A stretch of DNA of 64,000 nt, from positions 1 through 64,000 of the forward strand of contig CACHTV010000001.1 of NCBI GenBank assembly GCA_902582875.1. Reading direction: 5' to 3'. The notes under the pieces are model-generated. The model worked only from the letters and a program-made list of their open reading frames with translations. It was not told where the DNA came from and made no database searches. The translations under genes were made by a program, and so were the position numbers. Below are positions 51,890 through 52,931 of this stretch, piece after piece; the first letter of the stretch is position 1; every line of letters begins with the position of its first letter. Source of the DNA: an uncultured Pelagibacteraceae bacterium. GTDB lineage: Bacteria; Pseudomonadota; Alphaproteobacteria; Pelagibacterales; Pelagibacteraceae.

Positions 51890-52141
51890 TTAAATCTTTT
51901 TAGAAATTCTGGAAATTTTTCTTGCAGCAGTTTTTCTACTCATTACTCCAGATTTAGCAACCTGCATTAGAATTGATTGAAATTTTGAAAAAAATTTCTT
52001 AGCTTTTGCCTTATCTTTAGACTTAATTAATAAATCCATCTTTTTGACAGCATTTTTATACTTGCTTTTTCTTATTCTATTGATTTGAGTTTGTTTTTTT
52101 ACCCTTCTCACTCTTCTAATTGCTGATTTTGTATTTGGCAT
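51890..52141 (-). CDS. rpsT: 30S ribosomal protein S20
   Basis: MPNTKSAIRRVRR...; GVMSRKTAARKISRI. Confidence 0.96.
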   Translation of the reverse strand: MPNTKSAIRRVRRVKKQTQINRIRKSKYKNAVKKMDLLIKSKDKAKAKKFFSKFQSILMQVAKSGVMSRKTAARKISRISKKI

Positions 52142-52146
52142 AATTT

Positions 52147-52215
52147 TTAATCTGTATATATGTCAGTATTATCAGGGTCAACTTTATTATTTTCAACTTC
52201 AGGTAATTCTGGCAT
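52147..52215 (-). pseudogene. 22-codon ORF MPELPEVENNKVDPDNTDIYTD: MutM/Fpg N-terminus remnant or micropeptide
   Basis: First 8 residues are the Fpg N-terminal signature (catalytic Pro2, Glu3); lies in the mutM slot between ubiE and rpsT; manual translation. Confidence 0.7.
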
Positions 52216-52226
52216 ATAACTTATTT

Positions 52227-52931
52227 ATGAAAAGTACTATACGAAATAAAGACAAGCTGGTTAATACTGTTTTTTCTAGGGTATACAAAAAGTATGACCT
52301 AATGAACGATATAGCATCTCTAGGCATTCATAGAATTTGGAAAAACAAATTAATAGATTGGATGAACCCGCAATTTAATGAGAGCCTTATAGATGTTGCT
52401 TCAGGCACTGGTGATATAGCCAAGCTTTTCTCGAAAAAAAATAATAATTCATCTCAAATTACTTGTGTTGAGCCTAATGATGAAATGTACTCTGTTGGTA
52501 AATCAAGTTTAAAGAGTTTCAAAAATATTAAATGGCACAAAGCTAAGGCGGAAAAACTACCATTCAAAAATGATACATATAATTTTTATACAATTAGTTA
52601 CGGTATAAGAAATGTTTCAGATATAAATTTATGTTTAAAAGAAGCATTAAGAGTTTTAAGGCCTGGTGGTCGTTTTATGTGTCTGGAATTTTCTAAAATA
52701 GATAATGAAATGATTGATCTTCTTTATCAAAAATACTCAAAAATTATACCTCTAGTGGGTAAATATATTGTAGGATCTTCAGAACCTTACGATTATTTAA
52801 TTAAGAGCATTAATTCATTTCATACTCAAGATGAGCTGAAAAATTTAATAAAGAATAATGGATTTTCTAATGTAGAATATAGAAACCTTTCTGGTGGTAT
52901 TTCTGCAATACATTCTGGATGGAAAATTTAG
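52227..52931 (+). CDS. ubiE: ubiquinone/menaquinone C-methyltransferase
   Basis: VFSRVYKKYDLMNDIASLGIHRIWK, DVASGTGDIA, SYGIRNVSD, C-terminal GGISAIHSGWK. Confidence 0.96.
   Translation: MKSTIRNKDKLVNTVFSRVYKKYDLMNDIASLGIHRIWKNKLIDWMNPQFNESLIDVASGTGDIAKLFSKKNNNSSQITCVEPNDEMYSVGKSSLKSFKNIKWHKAKAEKLPFKNDTYNFYTISYGIRNVSDINLCLKEALRVLRPGGRFMCLEFSKIDNEMIDLLYQKYSKIIPLVGKYIVGSSEPYDYLIKSINSFHTQDELKNLIKNNGFSNVEYRNLSGGISAIHSGWKI

Follow-up and report, generated by a model that had tools for sequence, protein, structure and literature searches.

A conserved mutM deletion scar between ubiE and rpsT in SAR11-type bacteria, probably retained as two back-to-back promoters

The ubiE-rpsT locus

The stretch of DNA analysed here (the window, 64,000 nucleotides in full) belongs to an assembly of 0.91 Mb that is 73% complete. 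Between a methyltransferase gene and the gene for a ribosomal protein, with dnaA beyond the latter, it carries a short ORF divergent from ubiE:

52227..52931, plus strand: ubiE methyltransferase gene (PF01209, E 7.8e-75)
52215..52147, minus strand: 22-codon ORF MPELPEVENNKVDPDNTDIYTD between ubiE and rpsT, a fusion scar and probably no functional gene
51890..52141, minus strand: rpsT, ribosomal protein S20 (PF01649, E 4.2e-20)

Re-reading the minus strand from 52215 gave ATG CCA GAA TTA CCT GAA GTT GAA AAT AAT AAA GTT GAC CCT GAT AAT ACT GAC ATA TAT ACA GAT TAA, identical in start and stop to the ORF reported in the initial annotation; the stop codon ends at 52147, and 5 nt separate it from the rpsT start at 52141. 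A Pfam search of the 22-mer itself returned no match, PF01149 (the MutM/Nei N-terminal domain) included, and no terminator-like site was found at the ORF locus. The opening residues, MPELPEVE, had been taken for the N-terminus of Fpg/MutM, and the relatives bear this out: all 22 complete mutM genes found in the same slot in the genus start with MPELPEVE beside ubiE, and the match is therefore one of homology, not chance.

Loss of mutM by a shared deletion

The MutM N-terminal domain was detected in 44 of the 61 genomes searched. Within the window's genus, the whole ubiE-rpsT interval was read in 22 mutM-bearing genomes, and each has a full mutM of 287-291 codons between the two genes; the ubiE and rpsT starts are 918-932 nt apart in these genomes, as against 86 nt in those that carry the scar. 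The scar, with exactly this 86-nt distance, occurs in six species-level genomes, namely the window's own, G005, G009, G014, G015 and AG-414-N03, so that the suggested comparison of the interval across relatives found the remnant conserved in five further species. These five are Pelagibacteraceae or Pelagibacterales, SAR11-type marine bacteria whose ubiE is 79-86% identical to the window's. The ORF consensus of the six scar genomes is MPE[LI]PEVENNKVDP[DHI]N[TS][GD]IYT[VD].

The intact mutM of the relatives shows that the ORF is a deletion remnant, its start region preserved in frame and the rest of the gene missing, as had been proposed. About 840 nt were lost, and comparison with the relatives divides the scar as follows:

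52192..52215, minus strand: mutM codons 1-8, the sole coding remnant of mutM (same start in the 22 intact mutM genes)
52191..52193, minus strand: junction of the deletion, where the ends overlap by 2 nt (AA); placed by comparison with relatives
52142..52191, minus strand: mutM stop region and former mutM-rpsT spacer, matching the non-coding spacer of the 22 mutM-bearing genomes

Intact mutM opens ATGCCAGAATTACCNGAAGTTGAAGTTGTTAAA and typically closes CAAAAATAATAAAGTTGACC, after which the spacer leads to rpsT. With a slash marking the breakpoint, the relatives' ends at the junction are GAAGTTGAA/GTTGTT on the mutM 5' side and CAAA/AATAATAAAG at the mutM 3' end, and the scar itself reads ATGCCAGAATTACCNGAAGTTGAAAATAATAAAGTTGACC, the Leu4 codon being ATA in one genome. 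Both deletion endpoints fall just inside the -35 boxes described below. Codons 9-22 and the stop correspond to the relatives' mutM stop region and non-coding spacer, read in a new frame that hides the stop of mutM. The description of the ORF as a mutM reduced to 22 codons consequently holds for codons 1-8, whereas the relatives trace codons 9-22 to the spacer.

No match to PF01149 was found in the sequenced part of any of the six scar genomes, and the H2TH domain (PF06831), present in the mutM-bearing G028, G033 and G025, is likewise absent from the sequenced part of all six. The search for another full-length mutM or nei called for by the initial annotation found none in the assembly to which the window belongs, which is 73% complete. 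Completeness of the window's own genome, G005, G009, G014 and G015 is 73-87%, and the joint chance of having missed mutM through incompleteness in these five is about 5 in 10,000, independence being assumed. Relocation of mutM elsewhere was considered and is unlikely, as neither PF01149 nor H2TH was found in the six partial genomes. A literature search returned no report of mutM loss at the ubiE-rpsT locus. As a separate observation, five genomes of the genus (G001, G020, G023, G031 and G032) have a contig end in or immediately next to the ubiE 5' end or mutM, perhaps more commonly than by chance.

The identical breakpoints in six genomes argue for one deletion event. A tree of six genes places the mutM-bearing G028 (L076) among the six scar genomes (90/93), and a single clade of scar genomes is neither proved nor rejected by it (p-AU 0.083); a two-gene tree did not resolve the scar group, for which the six-gene tree gave the better resolution. 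Either G028 is truly the sister group, or recombination moved the deletion or restored mutM. The placement of G028 hints at recombination of the mutM locus, and promiscuous recombination has been described in SAR11 (PMC12374537).

In the mutM-less G005, G014 and G015 a full-length MutY-like gene was found, which indicates that part of the 8-oxoguanine system remains; full-length mutY was not found in the window's own assembly or in G009, both of which are incomplete. MutM losses have been described in some low-GC clades and can cause AT bias under oxidative stress (PMC9927291). The present locus documents the loss of mutM, and with it of a part of 8-oxoguanine repair, in a SAR11-type lineage where three or more members retain mutY.

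Candidate promoters on both strands

Two pairs of hexamers, on opposite strands, were recognized within the scar:

52176..52181, minus strand: -35 box TTGACC of the candidate rpsT promoter, invariant in 28 of 28 genomes
52153..52158, minus strand: -10 box TATACA of the candidate rpsT promoter, 11 nt before the rpsT ATG
52192..52197, plus strand: -35 box TTCAAC of the putative ubiE promoter, in former mutM codons 7-8, invariant in 28 genomes
52215..52220, plus strand: -10 box TATAAC of the putative ubiE promoter, overlapping the mutM start codon

In an alignment anchored on GTTGACC, all 28 genomes have TTGACC, exactly 17 nt and TATA[CTA]A before rpsT, the -10 variants (TATACA, TATATA and TATAAA) all ending 8-12 nt upstream of rpsT. 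In the mutM-bearing genomes conservation extends over both boxes and an AATAAAG flank, while most of the 17-nt spacer is variable. The site therefore combines the hexamers, the 16-18 nt spacing and the conservation of a sigma70-type promoter, and it agrees at 9 of 12 bases with the consensus, here that of E. coli. The call is based on conservation across the 28 genomes rather than on the standard promoter scan, which accepts only -10 boxes with a final T and so missed the site. From the position of the -10 box we infer an rpsT start site near 52146, which would give a near-leaderless mRNA. Between the two -35 boxes lie 10 nt, 52182-52191 (AATAATAAAG), that do not vary among the six scar genomes; the hexamers do not account for this conservation, which may reflect a UP-like element or simple relatedness. 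A neighbouring family, f2, of which four genomes were read (e.g. L056 and L004), has a mutM-rpsT gap of only about 15-35 nt, and in these four genomes no TTGACC-17-TATA motif fits the gap; a separate rpsT promoter may be particular to the window's genus.

The putative ubiE promoter has the -10 sequence TATAAT in 27 of 28 genomes and TATAAC in the window, a 17-nt spacer, and a position a few nucleotides upstream of the ubiE start. Constraint at the start of intact mutM accords with its presence: among the conserved residues of the protein, mean codon entropy is 0.16 in codons 2-11 versus 0.96 elsewhere in the gene, none of 20,000 amino-acid-matched resamplings was as low, and the lone freely varying codon, Pro5, falls within the ubiE promoter spacer. 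The mutM start thus likely holds a ubiE promoter on the opposite strand. TTCAAC is a weak match to the sigma70 -35 despite the TATAAT in 27 of 28 genomes and the 17-nt spacing, so the initiation of mutM translation could be responsible for part of the constraint; the constraint persists, however, in the six genomes that have no mutM.

What the scar conserves

Among the six scar genomes, the ORF differs at 7 nonsynonymous and 3 synonymous positions, a ratio that, with such small counts, does not depart from the expectation for no selection (binomial p 0.45). The same ratio is 26:63 in rpsT, from which the ORF differs (Fisher p 0.015), and 120:177 in ubiE, from which the difference is not significant (p 0.10); the corresponding pN/pS values are 0.50 for the ORF, 0.11 for rpsT and 0.17 for ubiE. 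The test of codon-level conservation that the initial annotation had suggested therefore yielded, on small numbers, no bias against amino-acid changes. Silent-site divergence, on the other hand, is 0.10 in the ORF versus 0.48 in both rpsT and ubiE, which places the constraint on the DNA, and mean pairwise difference is 0.06 over the ORF versus 0.35-0.40 at fourfold sites of the flanking genes. The 85-nt gap has 12 variable columns, of which a single one touches a hexamer, the ubiE -10 of the window, and none falls in the ubiE -35, the rpsT -35 or the rpsT -10, although the excess of variable columns outside the hexamers is not significant (p 0.17). Taken together, these numbers, though small, point to conservation of DNA rather than of a peptide.

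The open frame itself needs no selection. An in-silico join of the two pieces in each of the 22 mutM-bearing genomes gave ORFs of 10-34 codons, and 14 of the 22 remained open through the spacer. The join in G028 gives MPELPEVENNKVDPIITGIYTF, 22 codons with a stop 6 nt before rpsT, and so nearly the same ORF from sequence that was never selected as a peptide.

Weighing the explanations

Very probably the locus is a gene-loss scar retained as two back-to-back promoters, with the ORF as a by-product. In this account, one ancestral event deleted about 840 nt, taking out every mutM codon from the ninth to the last and fusing codons 1-8 to the spacer. Two divergent sigma70-type promoters would thereby have been left back to back, 10 nt separating their -35 boxes, that of ubiE (plus strand) in the old mutM start and that of rpsT (minus strand) in the old spacer, and we infer that both motifs are active as promoters. 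Selection would retain the scar DNA in this capacity; the fixed promoter elements and their spacing would bring with them, as by-products, an open frame of constant length and the 5-nt gap between it and rpsT, and both mRNAs are predicted to be near-leaderless.

That selection instead preserves the mutM start for a translated peptide of 22 residues, or for a leader tuning S20 synthesis, is very unlikely. A new functional micropeptide derived from the Fpg N-terminus could account for a frame that is intact in six of six genomes and for 17 invariant residues out of 22. However, the changes that did occur are mostly amino-acid changing and are located in the promoter spacers or the tail, silent sites are conserved as well, and in G028 an almost identical ORF comes out of unselected sequence; with amino-acid-level constraint missing, this proposal of the initial annotation has very little probability left. 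The chance is slim, if somewhat better, that the ORF is a translated leader from which ribosomes terminating 5 nt upstream re-initiate on rpsT (translational coupling). The short stop-to-start distance in the scar genomes would suit such coupling, as would an rpsT that has no Shine-Dalgarno sequence. The absence noted there is real, but it is the rule in this genome segment rather than something unusual: GGAG or GAGG stands at the Shine-Dalgarno place in only 3 of 58 window genes, with 1.1 expected from shuffles. In Caulobacter, 375 leaderless mRNAs and 75.4% of genes without Shine-Dalgarno sequence have been reported (PMC4117421). Moreover, rpsT has no such ORF in the 22 mutM-bearing relatives, where the mutM-rpsT gap is about 42-46 nt, and because the ORF contains the conserved rpsT promoter motif, transcripts from this motif should start downstream and lack the ORF. 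The proposed S20 leader is disfavoured on this ground, even though a read-through transcript may carry the ORF.

A plain, functionless pseudogene remnant whose erosion is still to come would fit the absence of mutM here and its intactness in sister genomes. It was expected to combine full-length mutM in sisters with random decay of the ORF, and only the former was found: the low difference over the ORF, set against the fourfold sites of its neighbours, indicates that the DNA is being kept, which leaves this explanation a small chance. Multiple-displacement amplification can produce chimeras, and the named junction records look like single-cell genomes, which would be in keeping with an assembly or amplification artefact. 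An identical junction in separate records of six genomes as diverged as their ubiE sequences rules out an amplification chimera and makes an artefact of any kind hardly credible. Retention of the scar as a promoter pair is the reading to which these comparisons lead.

Comparison with known systems

Deletion of mutM provides a natural experiment in which the removal of a gene reveals which of its bases served the neighbours. The mutM 5' end seems also to serve ubiE as its promoter, and to have outlasted the protein. It also advises caution, as a conserved short ORF with the N-terminus of a well-known protein can be a promoter pair and not a micropeptide.

The ORF shares with Fpg/MutM codons 1-8, with Pro2 and Glu3 among them, and the slot between ubiE and rpsT, but not the remainder of the catalytic domain, the H2TH domain or the zinc finger; with everything from codon 9 on missing, its product cannot be a glycosylase. 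Regulatory leader peptides and uORFs resemble it in being short ORFs just upstream of a ribosomal protein gene, while the scar ORF differs in having a candidate promoter within it and no coding constraint. The predicted rpsT transcript is comparable to the leaderless and short-leader mRNAs of Alphaproteobacteria, as the -10 boxes of the 28 genomes end 8-12 nt before the start and transcription would be expected to begin at the ATG or close to it. Divergent back-to-back sigma70-type promoters of compact bacterial genomes offer a further parallel, in the form of two 17-nt-spaced -35/-10 pairs on opposite strands within 86 nt; the putative pair described here is unlike them in having been formed by a gene deletion and in having its -35 boxes only 10 nt apart.
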